21,210 nt of DNA, taken from positions 1-21,210 of the IMG/VR virus record IMGVR_UViG_3300047440_000315; one strand, written 5' to 3'. This stretch comes from a virus. How positions within the stretch are numbered: the first letter of the stretch is position 1; every line of letters starts with the position of its first letter. The position numbers were made by a program, and so were the translations under genes. This document shows, in pieces, positions 4,146 through 20,143 of the stretch. The notes below the pieces were generated by a model. It did not search any database, was not told the origin of the DNA, and saw only the letters and a program-made list of their open reading frames with translations.

Positions 4146-4331
4146 GTGGACCTGACCCTCTACGCCGTCAGCGCGACTGGCCGCGTCTCTCTCGGCGACG
4201 TTCTCAAGAACGTCAAGTACGTCCAGGTCGAGAAAGCCGGTGACGGCGTGGTGATGCTGACCCCGGTCAACATCAAGGCCGCGTCCGGGCAGAGCTTCGC
4301 GGCCGACGACGAGGACCAGCCGGAGAGCTGA
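4146..4331 (+). CDS. Small AbrB-like protein (61 aa)
   Basis: GTG at 4146 with GGAGA 5 nt upstream is preferred over the GTG at 4134, which has no ribosome site. The product (MDLTLYAVSATGRVSLGDVL at the N-terminus, then KYVQVEKAGDGVVMLTPV) shows the beta-strand pattern of AbrB/SpoVT-type swapped-hairpin DNA-binding domains, where a GRISLG...DG.I.L.P arrangement is common. It ends in an acidic tail. This is a tentative family call from pattern alone. It follows the structured leader at 4022-4112, which may control it. Confidence 0.6.
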   Translation: MDLTLYAVSATGRVSLGDVLKNVKYVQVEKAGDGVVMLTPVNIKAASGQSFAADDEDQPES

Positions 4332-4675
4332 CCCAAGACCAGCAAACGCCCGTGAGCTAGTTGTGCACGCCAGCCGTGGCGTTGACGGAGACGAAAATCG
4401 GGCAAGCAGGGCAAACAAGGGAGACGAACCCCGAAGTGGCCCTGATGCAAGGCGGAGGTATGTGACCTAGAAGTGCAGGGAGATTGATGGTCACTAAACG
4501 TCTCCCTCCTCCGTCAGTTCTGATGCACCACCGCATGAGGCGGGACCGCTCGCCACCTCCGGGCCAGATGCACCCGGATGACAGCCCGGAAAGACGGGCA
4601 CCCGCGCCTGCTGACCGCCGAGCACTCCCGGACCGTCCCGGGTTCACTGCGGAGCCGATATGCAGGCCGGGGCTC
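4332..4675 (+). other. Non-coding, structured region upstream of the tRNA cluster
   Basis: No protein gene is supported. Several inverted repeats are visible: CGGAGG (4453-4458) with CCTCCG (4508-4513), enclosing GTGACC (4462-4467) with GGTCAC (4489-4494); and GGGAGACG (4419-4426) with CGTCTCCC (4499-4506), which crosses the first pair and could form a pseudoknot or alternative fold. GGAGACGAA occurs twice (near 4387 and 4420). Open frames here lack ribosome sites and have codon use unlike the neighbours. Confidence 0.5.
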
Positions 4676-4772
4676 GGGGAGATAGCTCAACAGGGAGAGC
4701 CGAAGAAGCCGCTAGGGAGGTTCCTCCCTGGCGCGCAGCAACGAGATGCAGGTTCAAGTCCTGCTCTCCCCT
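4676..4772 (+). tRNA. tRNA-like element A, anticodon region replaced by hairpin insert
   Basis: Acceptor GGGGAGA (4676-4682)/TCTCCCC (4765-4771) is perfect. T8 and A9 are present. The D arm is GCTC (4685-4688)/GAGC (4697-4700) with a normal loop containing A14, GG and A21. The T arm is GCAGG-TTCAAGT-CCTGC (4748-4764). Between the D and T arms are 47 nt instead of about 23. They contain AGGGAGG (4714-4720)/CCTCCCT (4723-4729), with no 5-bp anticodon stem and 7-nt loop bearing U33 that I can find. The 3' end is T then CG, and CCA is not encoded. It could be an interrupted tRNA, a degenerate tRNA or a tRNA mimic; the amino acid cannot be assigned. Confidence 0.5.
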
Positions 4773-4791
4773 CGCGAAGGAACGACGAGGA

Positions 4792-4824
4792 CCGGCTATG
4801 TGGCGGGGTTCTTCCCGCAGCCGG
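4792..4824 (+). other. Hairpin between tRNA-like elements A and B
   Basis: CCGGCT pairs with AGCCGG, and GCGGG with CCCGC inside it, giving an 11-bp interrupted stem in the spacer. There is no T-tract. It may be a processing site or a terminator. Confidence 0.45.
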
Positions 4825-4871
4825 ATGCTCACCTCGCCGCTAACCGACGCCATCCCCCTGAGCAAGGGATG

Positions 4872-4944
4872 GATGCTGTAGCTCAACGGATAGAGCACCT
4901 GCCTCAACGGCGGGAGGTAGGCGGTTCGACTCCGTCCAGCATCA
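4872..4944 (+). tRNA. tRNA with CAA anticodon, class I fold
   Basis: Complete 73-nt cloverleaf: acceptor GATGCTG/CAGCATC, T8 A9, D stem GCTC/GAGC, anticodon stem CCTGC/GCGGG (one T-G pair), loop CTCAACG, variable AGGTA, T arm GGCGG-TTCGACT-CCGTC, discriminator A. The anticodon reads CAA, which would decode Leu UUG. However, bacterial tRNA-Leu normally has a long variable arm, and here it is only 5 nt. Position 37 is C where a purine is expected. Identity is therefore uncertain. CCA is not encoded. Confidence 0.8.
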
Positions 4945-4945
4945 C

Positions 4946-5041
4946 GAGGTGACCACCGTGTTCGTACGTGAGGGGACCGGAGCCCAGGCTTGCAAGCCTT
5001 GCGACAGTCCGGCACGACGTACGGGGCGGGGCTGGCACCTC
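4946..5041 (+). ncRNA. Long nested hairpin between tRNA-like elements B and C
   Basis: Four nested pairings are seen: GAGGTG (4946-4951)/CACCTC (5036-5041), CGTACG (4963-4968)/CGTACG (5018-5023), CCGGA (4977-4981)/TCCGG (5008-5012), and the 14-nt palindrome AGGCTTGCAAGCCT (4986-4999). There is no T-arm, so it is not another tRNA. It may be a processing signal or an independent structured RNA. The pairing is seen; function is unknown. Confidence 0.45.
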
Positions 5042-5044
5042 GCA

Positions 5045-5089
5045 GTGGGAGGCGATGGCCGCTGTAGGGCAGTAGGCGTTGCCTTCCAC
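5045..5089 (+). other. 9-bp stem hairpin upstream of tRNA-like element C
   Basis: GTGGGAGGC (5045-5053) pairs with GCCTTCCAC (5081-5089), including one G-T pair, enclosing a 27-nt loop. It ends 5 nt before the acceptor stem of element C and may be a 5'-leader processing structure. Confidence 0.4.
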
Positions 5090-5094
5090 GCAAG

Positions 5095-5235
5095 CCCCCT
5101 GTAGCTCAGAGGACAGAGCACCACCTACCGCCCGCAGGCCCGGAAGAGAGGAACGGCTTCCACCTGCGGAACGGCCCGGAGGGAAACGCCGGGAAGCTCA
5201 GGTGGAGGCCGGTGGTTCGATTCCACCCAGGGGCA
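5095..5235 (+). tRNA. tRNA-like element C with 75-nt anticodon loop
   Basis: Acceptor CCCCCTG (5095-5101)/CAGGGGC (5228-5234) has six pairs plus a C-C at the end. The D arm is GCTC/GAGC with loop AGAGGACA. The anticodon stem CCACC (5121-5125)/GGTGG (5201-5205) is perfect, followed by variable AGGCC and T arm GGTGG-TTCGATT-CCACC. All spacings are canonical except the anticodon loop, which has 75 nt (5126-5200) instead of 7. The insert folds on its own: CCGCAGG (5132-5138)/CCTGCGG (5163-5169), GGAAG/CTTCC, and CCCGG/CCGGG. No simple removal leaves a loop with U33, so neither a classical intron nor the amino acid can be assigned. Confidence 0.5.
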
Positions 5236-5358
5236 CGGAGGCAGCTATGCCTAGCTGTGCACCATCGACGGATGGTCGACCCAAGCGAGAAATAGCACCG
5301 CCTGAGCTGTCAACGACGACGGTCCGACACCCTAGGCGGGAGTACGGGTAACAGGGAT
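5236..5358 (+). other. Structured spacer between tRNA-like elements C and D
   Basis: It contains AGCTA-TGCC-TAGCT, then ACCATC-GACG-GATGGT, and a wider CCGCCT/AGGCGG pairing. No protein gene or T-arm was seen. Confidence 0.35.
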
Positions 5359-5359
5359 C

Positions 5360-5472
5360 GCGGTGTGGCGCAGTACGGAGTCCGGACTCCCAAGAAGCGC
5401 ATCGTGATCCCGCCGTGAGGCTGGTGGAGCGGCCCCAGATGGGGCAGACGGGGTTCGACTCCCCGCACGGCA
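5360..5472 (+). tRNA. tRNA-like element D, D-loop and variable-arm insertions
   Basis: The T arm CGGGG-TTCGACT-CCCCG (5449-5465) is perfect. The acceptor is GCGGTG (5360-5365)/CACGGC (5466-5471), 6 nt with one G-G mismatch. After TG, the D stem GCGC (5368-5371)/GCGC (5397-5400) encloses a 25-nt loop holding the palindrome GGAGTCCGGACTCC. An anticodon arm is possible: TCGTG-ATCCCGC-CGTGA (5402-5418, two wobbles), with U33 and anticodon CCC (Gly). The variable region is then 30 nt and holds GCCCC-AGAT-GGGGC. Identity is tentative; it may be non-functional as a tRNA. Confidence 0.4.
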
Positions 5473-5529
5473 CGAGGGATTGGCAGGTAGCCCGGGTAGC
5501 CCCCGGAGTGAATGGCCGACCGGCCCGGC

Positions 5530-5607
5530 ACGGCTCTCAACGCCGGGTGGTAACAGGAACCGGTGATGAGCCGCGAGGGGATGCATACCCGACCGGCGAA
5601 GAGCCGT
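5530..5607 (+). other. Nested hairpin between tRNA-like elements D and E
   Basis: ACGGCTCT (5530-5537) pairs perfectly with AGAGCCGT (5600-5607), enclosing CGCCGG (5541-5546)/CCGGCG (5593-5598). Like the B-C spacer it is a long nested stem and could be a maturation signal. Confidence 0.45.
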
Positions 5608-5613
5608 AGTACC

Positions 5614-5684
5614 GCCCACAGCACGACGGTAGTGCGGACCCTCCCCAAGAGGGTCAAGGGCCGGGTTCGATTCCCGGGTGGGCA
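5614..5684 (+). tRNA. Short tRNA E, possible CCA anticodon (Trp)
   Basis: A 71-nt element: acceptor GCCCAC (5614-5619)/GTGGGC (5678-5683), D arm GCAC-GACGGTA-GTGC, anticodon stem ACCCT/AGGGT with loop CCCCAAG, T arm CCGGG-TTCGATT-CCCGG, discriminator A. Read this way the anticodon is CCA (Trp), but U33 is replaced by C. The acceptor has 6 rather than 7 pairs and only one linker base precedes the D stem. Unlike A, C, D and F it has no large insert. It could be a reduced or decaying tRNA. Confidence 0.6.
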
Positions 5685-5782
5685 CGCTGATGCACGAGAG
5701 AGGTCCAAAAGGGGCGACGGCCCATCGCTGATCTTGTGCTGTCCGAAGCCGGTGTCGACCAGACGTGGACTGGCTGAGGGCG

Positions 5783-5845
5783 GGTTGCCAGACGACATCT
5801 GGAAGGGCCCCCGGGGCCACGGCGCGGTCCTGTCGTCTGGCAACC
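5783..5845 (+). promoter_or_regulatory. 15-bp hairpin in the 5' leader of the gene at 5872
   Basis: Bases 5783-5797 pair without mismatch with 5831-5845 (core GCCAGACGACA/TGTCGTCTGGC), and GGCCCC/GGGGCC forms a 6-bp apical stem. The hairpin ends 13 nt before the GGAGGAGG ribosome site of the next gene. It may end the tRNA transcript, stabilise the downstream mRNA or control its translation. Confidence 0.5.
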
Positions 5846-5871
5846 TACAGCCGAACTTGGAGGAGGAGCCT

Positions 5872-6015
5872 GTGAGCAAGGAAAAGCCGGTGCACGTGCT
5901 CGCGTTGCTCAACGCTGCGCTGCGCGCGAAAGCTGAACGGGCGCGGGCGAAGGAAGCCAGGAAGGCCACCCTCGCCCAGCGGATCGTCCCCCGGAAGGGT
6001 CGAAGGGACAGGTAG
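5872..6015 (+). CDS. Small basic protein (47 aa)
   Basis: The GTG at 5872 follows GGAGGAGG at 6-8 nt spacing. Upstream in-frame starts lie in the structured RNA region and are rejected. The 47-residue product (MSKEKPVHVLALLNAALRAK, then Ala/Arg/Lys repeats) is predicted all-helical and strongly basic, ending RIVPRKGRRDR, so it may bind nucleic acid or act as a small structural protein. It opens a tightly coupled run of small genes; its TAG overlaps the next GTG. Function unknown. Confidence 0.65.
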   Translation: MSKEKPVHVLALLNAALRAKAERARAKEARKATLAQRIVPRKGRRDR

Positions 6016-6260
6016 TGGCGAAGAAGACGGTACGCCCGGCCAGGGGTCGCCCGCCTGGCCGTCGCGGGAAGGGCGGGGTCGGTCCGGGTCCTGCCTACCG
6101 GCCGGGTGGTTCCGGCGGGGGCACCACCCACAAGGGTGGCGACTGTTGCCCGATGGTCGCGGCTGTCCGCTCTGCCCGGCGCGGGAAGTTCCGGCTGGCC
6201 AGGCGGTACGCGTGGATGTCGATCGGGTTGCTCGCTGCCCGGGTCGGCCGGGTCGCCTGA
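6015..6260 (+). CDS. DCCPM-motif protein, copy 1 (81 aa)
   Basis: The GTG at 6015 overlaps the previous TAG. The N-terminal half is a disordered Gly/Arg/Pro-rich basic region (PARGRPPGRRGKGG), followed by a short Thr-His-Lys-Gly linker. From about residue 42 is the conserved block DCCPMVAAVRSARRGKFRLA then RRYAWMS. The same block ends the next two genes, so these are tandem paralogues. The invariant CC pair next to P-M, before a basic amphipathic helix, suggests a metal or disulphide site followed by a nucleic-acid or membrane-binding helix. I do not recognise the family. Confidence 0.75.
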   Translation: MAKKTVRPARGRPPGRRGKGGVGPGPAYRPGGSGGGTTHKGGDCCPMVAAVRSARRGKFRLARRYAWMSIGLLAARVGRVA

Positions 6261-6532
6261 TGTCGGGGCCGCCGGGACGCCGCCGCCCGCAGCGTGAGCG
6301 GCGGCCGGGGAGGGCCGGTAAGAAGCCGCCGCCCATCTACCAGCCCACGAAGAAGGGCGGCGGTACCCAGCACAAGCCGGGTACGCCGACCAGGGGCGGC
6401 GACTGCTGCCCGATGGTGGCCGCTGTGAAGGCGGCCAAGGCGGGCAAGCTGCGGCTGGCCCGCCGCTACGCTGCCATGTCGTTGCGCATCATCGCTGGAA
6501 GGACCCGCTATGCCGTCGTCGCACGGCCGTAA
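6260..6532 (+). CDS. DCCPM-motif protein, copy 2 (90 aa)
   Basis: The ATG at 6260 overlaps the previous stop (TGATG). It has the same architecture as copy 1: a basic Pro/Arg/Gly-rich N-terminus (MSGPPGRRRPQRERRPGRAG), a GGGTQHKPG linker, then DCCPMVAAVKAAKAGKLRLA and RRYAAMSLRIIAGR. It is the most diverged of the three copies in the helix and has an extra tail, RYAVVARP. The 3' end overlaps copy 3 by 23 nt. Function unknown. Confidence 0.75.
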   Translation: MSGPPGRRRPQRERRPGRAGKKPPPIYQPTKKGGGTQHKPGTPTRGGDCCPMVAAVKAAKAGKLRLARRYAAMSLRIIAGRTRYAVVARP

Positions 6533-6725
6533 GCCGCCCAATCCGCAGAAGGTCAAGCCTCAGCACGGCCGTAAGCCGCTCTACCCGGGCCGCCATGACG
6601 GGAAGAGCACCGACGACTGCTGCCCGATGGCCGCCGCCGTCCGTTCGGTGAAGCGGGGCAAGTTCCGGCTGGCCAGGCGGTATGCGGCCATGTCGGTGCG
6701 GCTGCTCGTGGGGAGGCTGGCGTGA
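6510..6725 (+). CDS. DCCPM-motif protein, copy 3 (71 aa)
   Basis: The ATG at 6510 has GGAAGGA about 6 nt upstream, inside the end of copy 2. The N-terminus carries two HGRKP repeats (SHGRKPPNPQK, QHGRKPLYPG), then DDCCPMAAAVRSVKRGKFRL and ARRYAAMSVRLLVGRL. The DNA of its helix is very close to that of copy 1 (both contain AAGTTCCGGCTGGCCAGGCG), so copies 1 and 3 are more recent duplicates than copy 2. Function unknown. Confidence 0.75.
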   Translation: MPSSHGRKPPNPQKVKPQHGRKPLYPGRHDGKSTDDCCPMAAAVRSVKRGKFRLARRYAAMSVRLLVGRLA

Positions 6726-8713: not shown

Positions 8714-8851
8714 GGTGGGGTACCCGAAGCGGCCTATCGGGTGATCCGGCGTGGCGGCAACTGGGACATAGCTGCGGCGTTCGGTAGATGATTCGGTGCG
8801 GGACTGTCCATCCCCGCCGGGCCACCGCAGGTTCAAATCCTGCCCCCACCT
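8714..8851 (+). tRNA. tRNA-like element F, class II D arm, about 55-nt insert
   Basis: Acceptor GGTGGGG (8714-8720)/CCCCACC (8844-8850) is perfect. TA, D stem CCCG/CGGG and loop AAGCGGCCTAT are like bacterial tRNA-Tyr and other class II tRNAs. The T arm is GCAGG-TTCAAAT-CCTGC. An anticodon arm is seen at about 8798-8817, with loop CTGTCCA (U33, anticodon GTC, C37) on a stem GGGA/TCCC. About 55 nt (8743-8797) separate the D arm from this arm, where one base is normal. GTGGC (8751-8755 region) can pair with GCCAC (8821-8825 region) around it. Identity is uncertain: the D arm resembles Tyr, the anticodon reads Asp. Confidence 0.55.
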
Positions 8852-8882
8852 CGATCCTGGGCGCCCTGGGCGCACGCCCCCC

Positions 8883-8996
8883 GGGATGTGTTTCCCCTGC
8901 CGCACGATGGCCGCAGAACGCGGCCCGCCGAGGCTCACGGGCACCGGAGCGACGTCGAACGCGGAACGGTGCGGCAGGGGCTCAAACGTCCCTCCC
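8883..8996 (+). ncRNA. Structured element with perfect 12-bp stem
   Basis: CCCCTGCCGCAC (8894-8905) pairs exactly with GTGCGGCAGGGG (8969-8980). Inside, GGCCGC-AGAAC-GCGGCC (8909-8925) is a perfect hairpin, and GCTC/GAGC forms another. GTTT/AAAC and GGGA/TCCC extend the base. It is followed by GCTCAAAC, also present in the 4022-4112 element. It ends 4 nt before the -35 of the next promoter, so it may be a terminator isolating that promoter or an independent RNA. Confidence 0.5.
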
Positions 8997-14842: not shown

Positions 14843-14854
14843 ATGATCGAAAAC
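14843..14854 (+). repeat. Repeated motif ATGATCGAAAAC
   Basis: The exact 12-mer occurs at 2203 region (inside terL), 13253 and 14843, with its reverse complement at 1372-1383; the 10-base core GATCGAAAAC also occurs at 8055. Four of the five copies lie at gene junctions. Possible protein-binding site or chance codon effect; see findings. Confidence 0.4.
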
Positions 14855-14860
14855 AATCGG

Positions 14861-14872
14861 TATGCTCACGGC
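14861..14872 (+). promoter_or_regulatory. Possible leaderless start: -10 before the giant gene
   Basis: TATGCT (14861-14866) ends 6 nt before the ATG at 14873, a geometry seen for leaderless actinobacterial mRNAs. No -35 is evident and no Shine-Dalgarno sequence precedes either possible start. Confidence 0.35.
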
Positions 14873-17800
14873 ATGGCGACGCTCAAGGACACGCTCAAGG
14901 GGTCAGCCACCGTCACCTTCGCGACGGTAGATCCGAAACTGTTCGCGATCCTGACCGGCCTGCCGACGACCCTGGACTTCCAGACGTTGTCGGCCCAGGT
15001 CTACAGCGCCGCGTACAGCATGTCCGCCAGCGCCTCGACCCTGCTGACGCTCGGCAGCCCGGACGCCATCACCGCCTCGATGGCCGCCTGGACCGGCCAG
15101 GACGACGACGCCCACGAGCCGTGCTCCCTGACCGCCTGCCGCACCCCGCTGCACCCCGGCCCCTGCAAGGGCTGGAAGCACACCCTGCACTCCGTCTCCC
15201 CGCACATCTACCGGCAGCTCGAAGAGGAACGCGTCCGCAAGGCCAACCACCGGCGTATCCAGCGGATCGCCGCCCTGAAGGCCGCGAACAAGCCCATCCC
15301 CCGCAAGCTGCTCGAAGAGATCAAGCCGAAGCCCGCGCCGACGCACACGCACGGCATGGCGCCGGTACCGCTCGGCCAGGTCAACCAGAAGGCCGACCTT
15401 GCAGGCGGGCAGGCCCACCACGCCGGGCAGGCCGTCTCCAACGCCGCCGGGATCAAGCCGAACACGGCGGCGTTGCCGAAGGGGCCGAAGCAGAAGAAGC
15501 CGACCGTCGCCGGTCGCGGCCCCGCGTTCGTCATCACCCAGCCGAAGGTCACCGACCAGTACAAGCTGGACAAGGCCGCCAAAATCACTCCGGCTGAGTG
15601 GGACGCCCTCACCCCCGCCGACAAGACGGCCATCCGCAACGAGCTGACCGCGATCAAGGCACGCGGGTTCGGCCCGCAGCAGACCAAGGCCGACGCCCTG
15701 CTGGCCAAGCTCCCCGCCGCCAACACCCTCGGCACGCTGAAGCCCGGCGCGCCCGGCACCATCACCACCCCGTCCGGCCACACGTACCAGAAGGTCAGCG
15801 TCACCCCCGGCAAGGTCAGTCTCGGCCAGGCCACCAAGACGGTCACCCCGCCCGCGCCCGCCACGCCGTCAGCACCGGCCGCCGCGAAGAAGGGCGAGAA
15901 GTTCGTCCACACCGTCGTCGGCCCCGACGGCAAGACCTACACGCGGACCAGCCACCGCGAATACACGCACGCCAGCGTCGTTCGCCTGTCTAACGGCGAC
16001 AAGGTCGTCTGGGGCTTCCACGGCAGCGAGGCCAACGCCCGCGCCACCCCGCTGACGTCCCAGCAGAAGAAGAACGGGATGGCCGTCGTAGACGCGCTGC
16101 CCGTCAAGCGTGAACCGCTGAAGAAGGGCGCGTCCGGGACGCCCTCCCCGTCCACCCCGGCGGCCCCGGCCTCGCCGCCGGGCAACACCCCCGCCGCTCC
16201 GGCCGTACTGTCGCCGGACGCCCAGCAGGCCCGCGCCGTCGCCGGACGCGGCATCGGCCGCCCCACCTCGAAGCTGCACGTCGACACCTACGGCAAGCTC
16301 ACCAAGGCCGACTTCGACTCCCTCGATGACCGGACGCAGCGGACCATCCGCGACGACCTGGCCAACGCCAAGGCGAAGTTCCTCGACCCGAAGAAGCAGC
16401 AGCAGGCGCAGGATCTCCTCGATCGTTTTGGATCAAGGCACACGTCCCCGGCGCCCGGCGCCCCGGCCGTCCCCGCCCACCCGAAGGGCTACAGCGACCC
16501 CGTCGCCCAGGCGGTCGCCGCCGCCCACGGCACCAACGACGCCGCAGCCCTCCACCGGGTCGGGCAGCTGTCGCACACCCAGCTCGACACCCTCGACGCC
16601 GCCGACAAGAAGACCATCACCGCCCGGCTGGCGTTCATCGCGTCGCACCCGAAGGCCGACCCGGCGACCAAGGAGAAGGCGCAGCAGCTCGGCCGCCTCA
16701 TCGTCACCGGCAAGCCCGCCGGGCTGCCGAAGCTCGACCACGAGCCCACCCTGAACGAGATCAACGCCCACCAGGCCAGCACCGGCTTCCACGCGCAGAC
16801 GAAGGCCCTGGAGGCCGCCGCCGACACGGCGATGCCGCGCGCCGACCGGGTCACCGCGCTGAACGGCCTGTCGAAGGCGCACTTCGACGACCTCAACCCG
16901 CAGCAGCAGCGCCGCATCACCGACGCCCTCCAGGACGTCCACCACGAGAACAGCGGCTACGCCAAGGTGCACGACGCCCCGTCGACCATGGCCGGTGAGG
17001 CGATCACCAAGTACACCGGCGACCACCCGGCCGTGCACCGGATCAAGCAGGCCGAGGCCGACTTCCGTGCGGGCAAGACCGACGCCCGGGGGGTGCACCG
17101 CGAGTTCCTGCACGCCCACGTCCAGGCGCCCAGCGGCGTATCGACCCCGCAGGGCGTCCGCGATCAGGTGAACGCCGAGGCGCAGCGGGTCGCCGAGGAC
17201 AACCCGTCGATGCCGCTGTGGCTGCGCTCCACCATGATCGACAACCCGTACTCCGGCAAGCGCGGCAACCCGTACTCCGTGATCTCCCAGCTGTCCATGG
17301 AGCACTCATGGAAGCCCGCACCCCGTCTGAGCCAGTCCGACTTCCGGGAGCTGTTCTCGTCGGCCGACGACGACCTGAAGAACACCCACCCGATCCACGT
17401 CGAAGCGATCAAGGCGTACCGCGAGCACATCGTGCACACCGGCCTGGAGTCCGGCAGCCCCTGGTCCACGGCCACCAAGGGGCTGCTCGTCGACTCGCTG
17501 ACCGGCACCGGCCTCGGCGGGAACAGCCCTGTCGTCACCGACGACCGGATGAAGATGATCGACGCCCTTCCTGCTGGCGACCGGACGCTGGTCCGGACCG
17601 TGCTCGCCGACCGGATCCTGGCGCAGACCACCAACCGGGCCAAGGCCGAAACCGACATCACGCTGCGGCAGTTGCAGGGCCACCCGTACACCGGCGACCG
17701 GCTCGCCGCCGCCATCGGCTCCACCGAACACTTCGTCGGCAAGGACCTTCAGGACACCTACCGCAAGCTGGACCCGCAGGACTTCCAGTCGCTGTCGTAC

Positions 17801-20143
17801 TACGCGCAGAAGTCCATCGGTGAGCAGCTCGACGAGTTGCAGACCAAGGCCGAGCGCAACGGCCCGGTGCTCACGTACGACACGCAGTCCAACGCGCTGA
17901 AGGAGTTCCCCAAGGCCCTGAAGGACCACCTCAACGGTGACCGCGCCGACTACGCCGACCGGCGGCTGCGGATGGCGTCCGACGTCGCCAACTACGGGCA
18001 GAAGATCGTCAACCCGTACGACCGGACCCGCGCGTACGCCGGTGTCCCGATCGGCCAGTTCCGGAACATGTCGCAGACCGACCAGGCCATGGTCAACAAC
18101 GACCTGTACGCCATCGCCGCCGACGCCGGGAACCCGCTGCCGATCCGGTACGGGGCAGCGTTCACCAACGACTTCACCCACGGCCTCGGCCACAACAAGA
18201 TCGACGCGCCGCAGCTTGTCGCGATCGGCGCCACCGACCCGCGCGTCGGCAACGGGCAGCCCGACAGCAACGTCATCCCCGCCCTGGACGCGCTCGACAA
18301 GGCCGCCTACGACAAGCTGGACCAGCCGTACCGCGACGCCATCGACGCGCGGGTCGGCACCATCCAGGGCCCGCAGCAGCAGGTGTTCGAGGCGAAGTTC
18401 CACCCGCAGGCCGCACCGGCCGCGAACCCGTCCGGCGTCGTCCCGACGACCGTGCAGGCGAACGTGCCGCCTCACGTGCAGGACGCCCTGGACACCATCT
18501 ACGGCGTCCACCCGAAGTCGCACACCATGGCGCACCAGCTGTCCACCTACGGCGGGCTGCGCGGCTCCGACTTCAACCAGCTCAACCCGCAGGAGCAGAG
18601 CCACCTGCTGTCCGACCTGTCGTACATCCACACCACCGCGAAGGGGCCGTCGGCCGCCAAGGCGAAGCTGCTGATCGACCGGTTCACCCCGGCCGGTACC
18701 CCGTCCGGTCACATCCCGCCGCAGCCGATCATCCCTCCGGCCAACGCCGTGCCCGGCCAGGTCCGGTATGCGACCCCGCTGGTCGGGTTGGAGAAGGCGA
18801 AGGACGGCGGGAAGAACGGCGACAAGTGGATCACCATCCCGGGCGGTCGCCGGGTGTGGGGCGAGTACGGCGCGTCCGGCCTGATGATCAAGCACACGGA
18901 CCCGGCCACCGGCGAAGAGCGCTACCTGATGGTCCAGCGCGGCCCGGCCATCTCCGACCCCGGCAAGTGGACGTTCCCCGGCGGCGCCTCCGAGTCGAAG
19001 GAGACCCCGCACCAGGGCGCCGCCCGCGAGACCATCGAAGAACTGGGCCTCAAGGACGACGTGTTCAAGGACGCCCTGGTCCACGGCGACTTCACGTACA
19101 CGGTGCCGAACCACCCGTGGAAGTACACGTCGGTGGCCATCTCCGTCCCGTCGATGATCAAGCCGAACCTGTCGACGGCGCACGCCCGCGCCGAAACCTC
19201 CGACGCGAAGTGGTTGACCCTCGCCGAGATCCAGGCCCTCGACAAGTCCGGCGACCTGCACCACCCCATCGCGGGCGGCCTGCTCGAAAAGAACGTCATC
19301 AGCCTGTACCCGGCCGCGTCGTCCCTCGGCCAGGTAGCGGCCCGGCCCGGCCCCGTCTCGAAGCGTCTGGGCCGTCTGAAGCTGCCGTCCGGCGGCCGTC
19401 AGGCCCCGGCCAACTTCAACGCCTGGCCGCACGCCCACAAGCAGTCCAAGGGCAAGAACCTCATCCCCGACAAGGCCGCCTTCGACGCCCAGCGGCAGAA
19501 GATCAAGCAGGACCGCGCCCTGTACGACGCGAAGACCGCCGACGGCCGCCTGGCCGCCATCGGCGCGCAGCAGGGGTTCGACGACACCCCCACCGTCGTC
19601 GACAAGAAGGAGATCGACCGGTTGCTGGCCACCGGCGACTACATCGAGGCGTGGCGCGGCGTGCAGGGCGCCGGAGGCCACGGTTGGCGCGGCTCGAACC
19701 GTTCCAACGGCAAGAGCGCCACGCAGATCAACGAGGAGATGCGGACCGGTCCCGCCTACTACGGCAAGGGCATCTTCGGCAACGGCTACTACCTGGCCAC
19801 CCAGCGGCGCATCGCCGAGCAGTACGCCGACGGCACCCACGGTTCGGTCGTGCGCATGCTCATCCCGAAGACCGCCGTCACCGACACGTACGACAAGGTC
19901 GAGAAGGAGGCGCACAGCCGCGCAGGCCGCACGTCGAAGGCCAAGGGCTCCAGCGGCTACGAGCCGAGCACCTTCTACGACCCGGGCCGGTACGCCGCCG
20001 CGAAGGGCCTCGACGGTATCGAGATCCTGCCCCACACCCGTAACCATCTGGGCCAGGGGGCATCGCACGTCGCCAAGCACGGCAGCCCCGCCTTCAACTG
20101 GCTGAACCGTTCCGTCTTGATCATCCAGAAGGAGCCCGGGTGA
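14873..20143 (+). CDS. Giant head-associated protein: helical repeats, NUDIX, ADP-ribosyltransferase-like domain
   Basis: A 1756-residue protein. An ATG at 14843 is in frame, but the 10 extra codons include AAT, TAT and GCT, rare here, so I start at 14873. N-terminus: CCHCH knuckle C84, C89, H94, C98, H103. Then about eight diverged helical repeats of 35-55 residues (about 228-280, 468-519, 556-610, 656-695, 962-995, 1056-1102, 1136-1177, 1224-1271) joined by Ala/Pro linkers. A NUDIX hydrolase domain follows at about 1330-1475 with a complete box, G1371-x5-E1377-x7-RETIEELGL. The end is ART-like: WRGV (R1595), then AYYGKGIFGNGYYLA (1628-1642) and RRIAEQYA. The role is probably head-packaged effector acting on host targets or nucleotides after injection (inference from MuF linkage and from virion ARTs such as T4 Alt). 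Confidence 0.85.
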   Translation: MATLKDTLKGSATVTFATVDPKLFAILTGLPTTLDFQTLSAQVYSAAYSMSASASTLLTLGSPDAITASMAAWTGQDDDAHEPCSLTACRTPLHPGPCKGWKHTLHSVSPHIYRQLEEERVRKANHRRIQRIAALKAANKPIPRKLLEEIKPKPAPTHTHGMAPVPLGQVNQKADLAGGQAHHAGQAVSNAAGIKPNTAALPKGPKQKKPTVAGRGPAFVITQPKVTDQYKLDKAAKITPAEWDALTPADKTAIRNELTAIKARGFGPQQTKADALLAKLPAANTLGTLKPGAPGTITTPSGHTYQKVSVTPGKVSLGQATKTVTPPAPATPSAPAAAKKGEKFVHTVVGPDGKTYTRTSHREYTHASVVRLSNGDKVVWGFHGSEANARATPLTSQQKKNGMAVVDALPVKREPLKKGASGTPSPSTPAAPASPPGNTPAAPAVLSPDAQQARAVAGRGIGRPTSKLHVDTYGKLTKADFDSLDDRTQRTIRDDLANAKAKFLDPKKQQQAQDLLDRFGSRHTSPAPGAPAVPAHPKGYSDPVAQAVAAAHGTNDAAALHRVGQLSHTQLDTLDAADKKTITARLAFIASHPKADPATKEKAQQLGRLIVTGKPAGLPKLDHEPTLNEINAHQASTGFHAQTKALEAAADTAMPRADRVTALNGLSKAHFDDLNPQQQRRITDALQDVHHENSGYAKVHDAPSTMAGEAITKYTGDHPAVHRIKQAEADFRAGKTDARGVHREFLHAHVQAPSGVSTPQGVRDQVNAEAQRVAEDNPSMPLWLRSTMIDNPYSGKRGNPYSVISQLSMEHSWKPAPRLSQSDFRELFSSADDDLKNTHPIHVEAIKAYREHIVHTGLESGSPWSTATKGLLVDSLTGTGLGGNSPVVTDDRMKMIDALPAGDRTLVRTVLADRILAQTTNRAKAETDITLRQLQGHPYTGDRLAAAIGSTEHFVGKDLQDTYRKLDPQDFQSLSYYAQKSIGEQLDELQTKAERNGPVLTYDTQSNALKEFPKALKDHLNGDRADYADRRLRMASDVANYGQKIVNPYDRTRAYAGVPIGQFRNMSQTDQAMVNNDLYAIAADAGNPLPIRYGAAFTNDFTHGLGHNKIDAPQLVAIGATDPRVGNGQPDSNVIPALDALDKAAYDKLDQPYRDAIDARVGTIQGPQQQVFEAKFHPQAAPAANPSGVVPTTVQANVPPHVQDALDTIYGVHPKSHTMAHQLSTYGGLRGSDFNQLNPQEQSHLLSDLSYIHTTAKGPSAAKAKLLIDRFTPAGTPSGHIPPQPIIPPANAVPGQVRYATPLVGLEKAKDGGKNGDKWITIPGGRRVWGEYGASGLMIKHTDPATGEERYLMVQRGPAISDPGKWTFPGGASESKETPHQGAARETIEELGLKDDVFKDALVHGDFTYTVPNHPWKYTSVAISVPSMIKPNLSTAHARAETSDAKWLTLAEIQALDKSGDLHHPIAGGLLEKNVISLYPAASSLGQVAARPGPVSKRLGRLKLPSGGRQAPANFNAWPHAHKQSKGKNLIPDKAAFDAQRQKIKQDRALYDAKTADGRLAAIGAQQGFDDTPTVVDKKEIDRLLATGDYIEAWRGVQGAGGHGWRGSNRSNGKSATQINEEMRTGPAYYGKGIFGNGYYLATQRRIAEQYADGTHGSVVRMLIPKTAVTDTYDKVEKEAHSRAGRTSKAKGSSGYEPSTFYDPGRYAAAKGLDGIEILPHTRNHLGQGASHVAKHGSPAFNWLNRSVLIIQKEPG

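Follow-up and report, generated by a model that had tools for sequence, protein, structure and literature searches.

Anticodon-free tRNA-like RNAs in bacterial viruses as candidate processing marks at the ends of phage structured RNAs

In mammals, mascRNA and menRNA are small tRNA-like RNAs with a reduced, non-decoding anticodon arm, and they are located at the 3' ends of the structured noncoding RNAs MALAT1 and MEN-beta, respectively. Cleavage of the MALAT1 transcript by RNase P at mascRNA creates the 3' end of the long RNA, which is a precedent for the use of a tRNA fold as punctuation. Mitochondrial transcripts use tRNA folds as cut marks in polycistronic RNA, though the mitochondrial tRNAs also decode. 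The tRNA-like domain of tmRNA is the top half of a tRNA without an anticodon and with an insert in its place. Among phage RNAs, GOLLD and ROOL are encoded near tRNA islands, and the GOLLD linker sometimes contains tRNAs (PMC12286853); a pseudo-tRNA is reported within one mycobacterial GOLLD (PMC6582537). Theta ribozymes, which are HDV-like, occur at the 3' ends of phage tRNAs and are proposed to process the 3' trailer (PMC10879173). The GOLLD and ROOL papers place these RNAs near tRNAs, with no mention of a 3' end that abuts an interchangeable, often non-decoding tRNA, and a literature search that drew mostly on sources other than subscription papers and preprints turned up no paper on anticodon-less phage tRNAs or on the GOLLD 3' junction. 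Phage tRNAs are almost always understood in terms of codons, whereas in the tRNA folds described here selection clearly disregards the anticodon.

The window (the whole 21.2-kb stretch of DNA that was analysed) is an IMG/VR virus fragment carrying terminase, portal and head genes. It contains six tRNA-like elements, A to F, all on the plus strand, five of which lie at 4676-5685 between the terminase and portal genes and the sixth at 8714-8851. An arm scan with three required parts (acceptor stem, D arm and T arm) and an unconstrained middle agrees with the predicted folds that these arms are paired in A, B, C, E and F, as the original prediction had held. Its description of four elements as interrupted stands for three. 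Element A (4676-4772, 97 nt) has an acceptor of GGGGAGA and TCTCCCC, D and T arms, and a long hairpin that replaces the anticodon arm; in C (5095-5235, 141 nt) the anticodon arm carries a structured insert of about 70 nt; and F (8714-8851, 138 nt) has a long hairpin insert between its D and T arms. Element D, placed earlier at 5362-5475, is a shortened form and carries no insert: the 5' half of that interval is a leader or spacer module, and the folded element spans 5411-5473 (63 nt), with a 6-bp acceptor and a truncated, tiny arm capped by an AGAU tetraloop. Elements B (4872-4944, 73 nt) and E (5613-5685, 73 nt, with a 6-bp acceptor and C opposite A at its end) are called Leu(CAA) and Trp(CCA) by ARAGORN, yet they are not ordinary tRNAs either. 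The Trp(CCA) call is not kept in orthologues of E, and in leader-anchored orthologues of both elements the anticodon loops are short (mostly 3-6 nt) and unrelated, with no common triplet.

Standard tRNA finders recover part of the array. In the window, the Rfam tRNA model scores A at 42.9 bits and B at 54.8 bits, both above the cut-off. ARAGORN in its default mode calls only B and E, and its intron options add C and a misplaced D. No family other than tRNA exceeded its cut-off in the Rfam scan of the window, which gave no match to GOLLD, ROOL, an intron family or tmRNA, and ARAGORN found no tmRNA in the window. The window elements resemble the tmRNA domain in having an insert where the anticodon would be, but differ from it in that the D stem, absent in tmRNA, is present. 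Element D bears a weak resemblance to mascRNA (18.2 bits against a cut-off of 42.5), so that no homology to mascRNA or menRNA is detectable with this model.

To place the array in context, about 55 related soil-phage contigs (1.08 Mb) were gathered by terminase and portal searches. A first arm scan of these relatives gave 230 matches on the sense strand and 11 on the reverse strand, and a reworked scan gave 206 and 26, some of the reverse matches looking real. This excess on the sense strand indicates that the elements are not chance matches. At the same loci across the relatives, the acceptor, D and T arms are maintained with compensatory changes, while the anticodon region is absent (58-60 nt in total), reduced to 3-6-nt caps or replaced by inserts (elements of up to 203 nt). 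Elements of the GGNGACG class measure 60, 83, 104, 124, 125 or 194-203 nt, their ends paired and the D arm invariant throughout, and those of the GGGGAGA class, to which A belongs, range from 58 nt, without an anticodon arm, to 151 nt. The anticodon arm is missing altogether from the 58-, 59- and 60-nt forms. A 7-nt loop with U33, as in a canonical anticodon arm, occurs in only 10 of 117 unique window-family elements, although the top half of a canonical tRNA, with its paired acceptor, D arm, T arm and elbow contacts, is retained. Several different elements occur per phage, they are gained and lost between relatives, and the anticodon region changes fast. When an isolate with the same array was sought, the nearest one by portal protein, phiAsp2 (38% identity), gave no tRNA match.

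Acceptor pairing was assessed on leader-anchored elements, which were chosen by conserved upstream sequence and independently of pairing. Their acceptors form 6.39 of 7 pairs compared with 4.77 +/- 0.20 when the 3' strands are permuted, a value reached in none of 5000 permutations; the test allows a shift for observed and permuted strands alike, and leader B alone is uninformative. Without the shift the test is weak for two leaders, owing to register and a mutated T loop. The compensatory changes in the acceptors confirm the earlier proposal that the arms are under selection and the anticodon region is not. By their sequence, the window elements are anticodon-free tRNA-like RNAs that do not decode, and the suggestion of tRNA mimicry gains support in that the top half is kept and the anticodon region is non-decoding.

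That the inserts, perhaps a new kind of intervening sequence, are removed to regenerate a decoding tRNA is hardly credible. When its intron options are on, ARAGORN suggests introns in C and D, but the entire anticodon arm is missing from orthologous loci. The inserts differ in sequence and place, as was first described, and relatives share no insert site, insert sequence or splice motif; with neither an arm nor a common insert, excision would restore nothing. A constant insert site whose removal regenerates an anticodon loop, as in intron-containing tRNA genes, was not found, and no Rfam intron family matched. The rarity of the 7-nt loop with U33 argues in the same direction. Insertion of hairpins into tRNA genes as mobile elements is not supported, since a single locus carries different kinds of insert. 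Neutral persistence of decaying or passenger phage tRNA genes that have lost decoding is very unlikely as well. It could account for elements of the window-family classes that still resemble ordinary tRNAs and for pneumococcal GOLLD-adjacent copies with broken acceptors (see below), but it is largely contradicted by the covariation: acceptor changes are compensatory over a wide divergence, elbow contacts are intact, and a Lactobacillus element (see below) is near-identical between diverged flanks.

Conservation is not confined to the elements. The sequences between them in the window are conserved too, sometimes beyond the elements themselves, and covariation supports their folding as structured RNAs, all on the plus strand. 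The module between A and B (4773-4871) starts at the base after position 73 of A, and a small hairpin in it ends at the first base of B. A second module (gaggtgacc..., 4945-5094) has nine copies, eight of which begin where a tRNA-like ends; a third (ggaggcag..., 5236-5410) is conserved in its first 105 nt or so; and a leader module (ggtaacaggaa...gtac, 5542-5612) directly abuts E and its counterparts in seven phages. The module at 8852-8990, which has covarying hairpins, starts at the 3' end of F, and in nine related loci it is followed directly by another tRNA-like element that the window does not have. Unlike GOLLD and ROOL, the window modules match no Rfam family, and GOLLD and ROOL gave no match in seven relatives. 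The modules resemble theta ribozymes in sitting at phage tRNA 3' ends and differ from them in having no HDV-like Rfam match and in that the tRNAs here are non-decoding. HDV-like ribozymes were considered as an identity for the modules and seem improbable, as there was no Rfam match at E up to 5 in 4330-5900 and the topology appeared unfit by eye, the theta motif being compared by eye only.

Within the window family, 28 of 40 module copies start no more than 1 nt from a T arm plus acceptor, a coincidence expected at 0.16% of random positions or 0.83% of positions within clusters. The other 12 copies have no clear T arm at their start, several having a T-arm-like remnant in the same register. 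The same module is found behind tRNA-likes of different acceptor classes. At the opposite border, three module families end where a tRNA-like starts, the leader modules lying 0-1 nt from the acceptor. The borders of the tRNA-likes and of the modules coincide, and punctuation is the simplest account. Some modules (L007:8961, L025:2596 and L019:13856) lie behind T-arm-like hairpins whose loops start with ATCGNT instead of TTCGAN, and these hairpins are possibly a further derived tRNA-like class.

A similar junction occurs at the 3' end of GOLLD. In Streptococcus porci a 59-nt anticodon-less element begins 3 nt past the GOLLD 3' end, and a tRNA-type T arm lies directly behind GOLLD in all 15 loci examined (12 distinct) from Streptococcus phages and genomes. 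At the eight distinct loci with a fully paired acceptor, 3-10 nt separate GOLLD from the element, which is a tRNA (called Phe, Ser, Arg or Trp), a 76-nt odd tRNA, a 59-nt anticodon-less form, a 113-nt form with an insert or a 68-nt odd form. The site at the Streptococcus GOLLD 3' end thus holds a tRNA, an insert form or an anticodon-less form interchangeably. Five junctions of the pneumococcal type have degenerate acceptors with 4 of 7 pairs, and across the GOLLD junctions (L390:3426-3876; L492-L500, L507-L512) the T arm and 3' acceptor strand are the most conserved parts. One Lactobacillaceae GOLLD has no tRNA at its 3' end. Six Lactobacillaceae ROOL copies are divided: a tRNA-Lys follows one after 4 nt; in two (L504 and L505, oriented positions of about 2030-2110) a T arm and 7-bp acceptor span the ROOL 3' end, which suggests an overlap between a tRNA-like and the end of ROOL; and the other three lack a tRNA at this position, where at least two have a terminator-like hairpin. 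The window array resembles GOLLD and ROOL, in which a tRNA or tRNA-like stands at the 3' end of every Streptococcus GOLLD and of three of the six ROOL copies examined.

The likelihood is judged about even that the tRNA-likes punctuate the transcript for RNase P and a 3' tRNase and that the structured RNAs of the phage are trimmed in this way. Host RNase P would cut the primary transcript at the 5' end of each tRNA-like, a 3' tRNase (RNase Z) would cut at its 3' end, and the structured RNAs would thereby be trimmed, leaving the tRNA-like as a stable by-product. The retained parts (acceptor stem, T arm, D arm and elbow contacts) are the features by which RNase P, RNase Z and the CCA enzyme know their substrates, and the part that is missing, capped or swapped for larger hairpins is the anticodon arm, which the ribosome needs. 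Decoding is unnecessary for punctuation, which would explain why only the top half is kept. As with mascRNA, a tRNA top half with a non-decoding anticodon region is positioned at the 3' end of a structured noncoding RNA. The phage elements differ from mascRNA and menRNA in that they occur in phages and bacteria, several may be present per locus, the arm is absent or much enlarged, and cleavage is predicted. They differ from mitochondrial punctuation in that the window tRNA-likes are non-decoding.

It is improbable that module and tRNA-like instead remain one RNA, with the tRNA-like as an uncut 3' domain that protects the end or binds protein, in the manner of plant-virus tRNA-like structures or tmRNA. 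A folded acceptor/T/D element can hardly avoid presenting an RNase P site at its 5' end, and modules begin exactly at tRNA-like 3' ends as well, which the uncut domain does not require. The close spacing does fit such a domain, with 0-1 nt between leader modules and acceptor and no more than about 10 nt between GOLLD and the tRNA-like, as do the covalently linked tRNAs in GOLLD cages (PMC12286853).

A wider proposal, put forward tentatively and at slightly less than even likelihood, is that these elements are an undescribed, widespread class of phage RNA, an RNase P/tRNase mark that fixes the ends of GOLLD, some ROOL RNAs and several new actinophage families, and that the association with tRNA islands arises because the tRNA fold, and not decoding, is needed at the 3' ends. 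If the elements are processing marks, this would explain why GOLLD, ROOL and similar giant phage RNAs lie in tRNA islands, these RNAs would gain defined ends, a mascRNA-like trick would have arisen in bacterial viruses too, and some counts of phage tRNAs would be wrong.

Anticodon-less tRNA-likes appear from their sequences to occur in many unrelated bacterial viruses. The pattern TAGCTCA-N(5-9)-GAGC-N(5-17)-GGTTCRANYCC, which leaves no space for an anticodon arm and does not constrain the acceptor, matched more than 120 IMG/VR stretches, and the matches listed include 105 unique elements in other viral contigs. Acceptor pairing among these 105 averages 5.90 of 7 (3.07 +/- 0.12 when permuted), with at least 6 of 7 pairs in 78. 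In these 78 paired elements, again among the matches listed, elbow contacts are retained (Y48 in 76, A21 in 75 and the D-loop GG in 77), the commonest length of the D-to-T linker is 8-9 nt, and CCA is encoded in only 10, as expected for substrates of a 3' tRNase. On the contigs tested, ARAGORN did not report the anticodon-less elements, and such folds are missed in annotation with that program. A near-identical class in the Lactobacillus brevis phages LBR48, Lb and 3-SAC12 is annotated as nothing or as tRNA-OTHER; these phages are isolated, which makes the element directly testable. The Lactobacillus element is about 97% identical across 20 contexts (linker 98%, 3' acceptor 99%, flanks 29-63%), and the search pattern had fixed parts of the 5' half, not the linker or 3' acceptor. 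A scan of bacterial genomes found forms with paired acceptors in Levilactobacillus, Lacticaseibacillus, Corynebacterium and Streptococcus, the remaining matches containing assembly Ns or lying inside ordinary Thr tRNAs.

Many of the elements in other phages are solitary, with no recognised structured RNA adjoining. By rough ORF calls, 26 of 51 scorable anticodon-less elements do not lie between two genes of the same direction as themselves, and some solitary ones are antisense to both neighbours, which suggests that punctuation in cis may not be the sole role. Solitary elements sustain the main rival to processing, namely that the tRNA-likes are stand-alone mimics acting in trans, generic decoys or sponges that would occupy host factors which bind tRNA, or defence toxins directed against the tRNA elbow or 3' end. 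This is unlikely overall, though the number of elements per phage, their gain and loss among relatives, the fast change of the anticodon region and the strong conservation of the solitary Lactobacillus element, linker included, are all compatible with it. Acceptor ends vary freely, G1:C72 being present in only 27 of the 78 paired elements among the matches listed. A specific host tRNA as the model for the mimic was sought in two host genomes and rejected: no parsed tRNA agrees at more than 4-5 of 7 bases with the acceptor of the prophage element in Levilactobacillus or in Corynebacterium, and the nearest in that set is an Arg tRNA beside the element in the prophage itself. This variation and the lack of a parsed host match indicate that no particular host tRNA is copied. 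Trans-acting mimicry also leaves unexplained the exact abutment to structured modules and GOLLD 3' ends, which processing fits better than a decoy.

No single protein family recurs beside the solitary anticodon-less elements as a candidate partner. Terminase and late-activator genes do recur there, a position which tRNA genes generally may share. In phage Lb, an array follows the anticodon-less element (L311:3500-3965) and includes half of an Ile-like tRNA and a long element that encloses a second T arm. Single strong tRNA-like matches occur away from the main cluster on the reverse strand of the relatives L005, L006, L019 and L023. In many genomes of Flavobacterium and Chitinophagaceae (Bacteroidota; L322, L329, L350, L381 and others), D and T arms are found at anticodon-less spacing with unpaired acceptors, and these sequences are not the same class. 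Just downstream of the RNA cluster in the window, at 6015-6725, three small basic paralogues in tandem, each with a (G/D)DCCPM(V/A)AAV motif, are by eye candidate RNA-binding partners. Further on, a 1766-aa reading frame (14843-20143) follows a MuF-like gene, and its C-terminal part resembles, by eye, NUDIX and ADP-ribosyltransferase domains.
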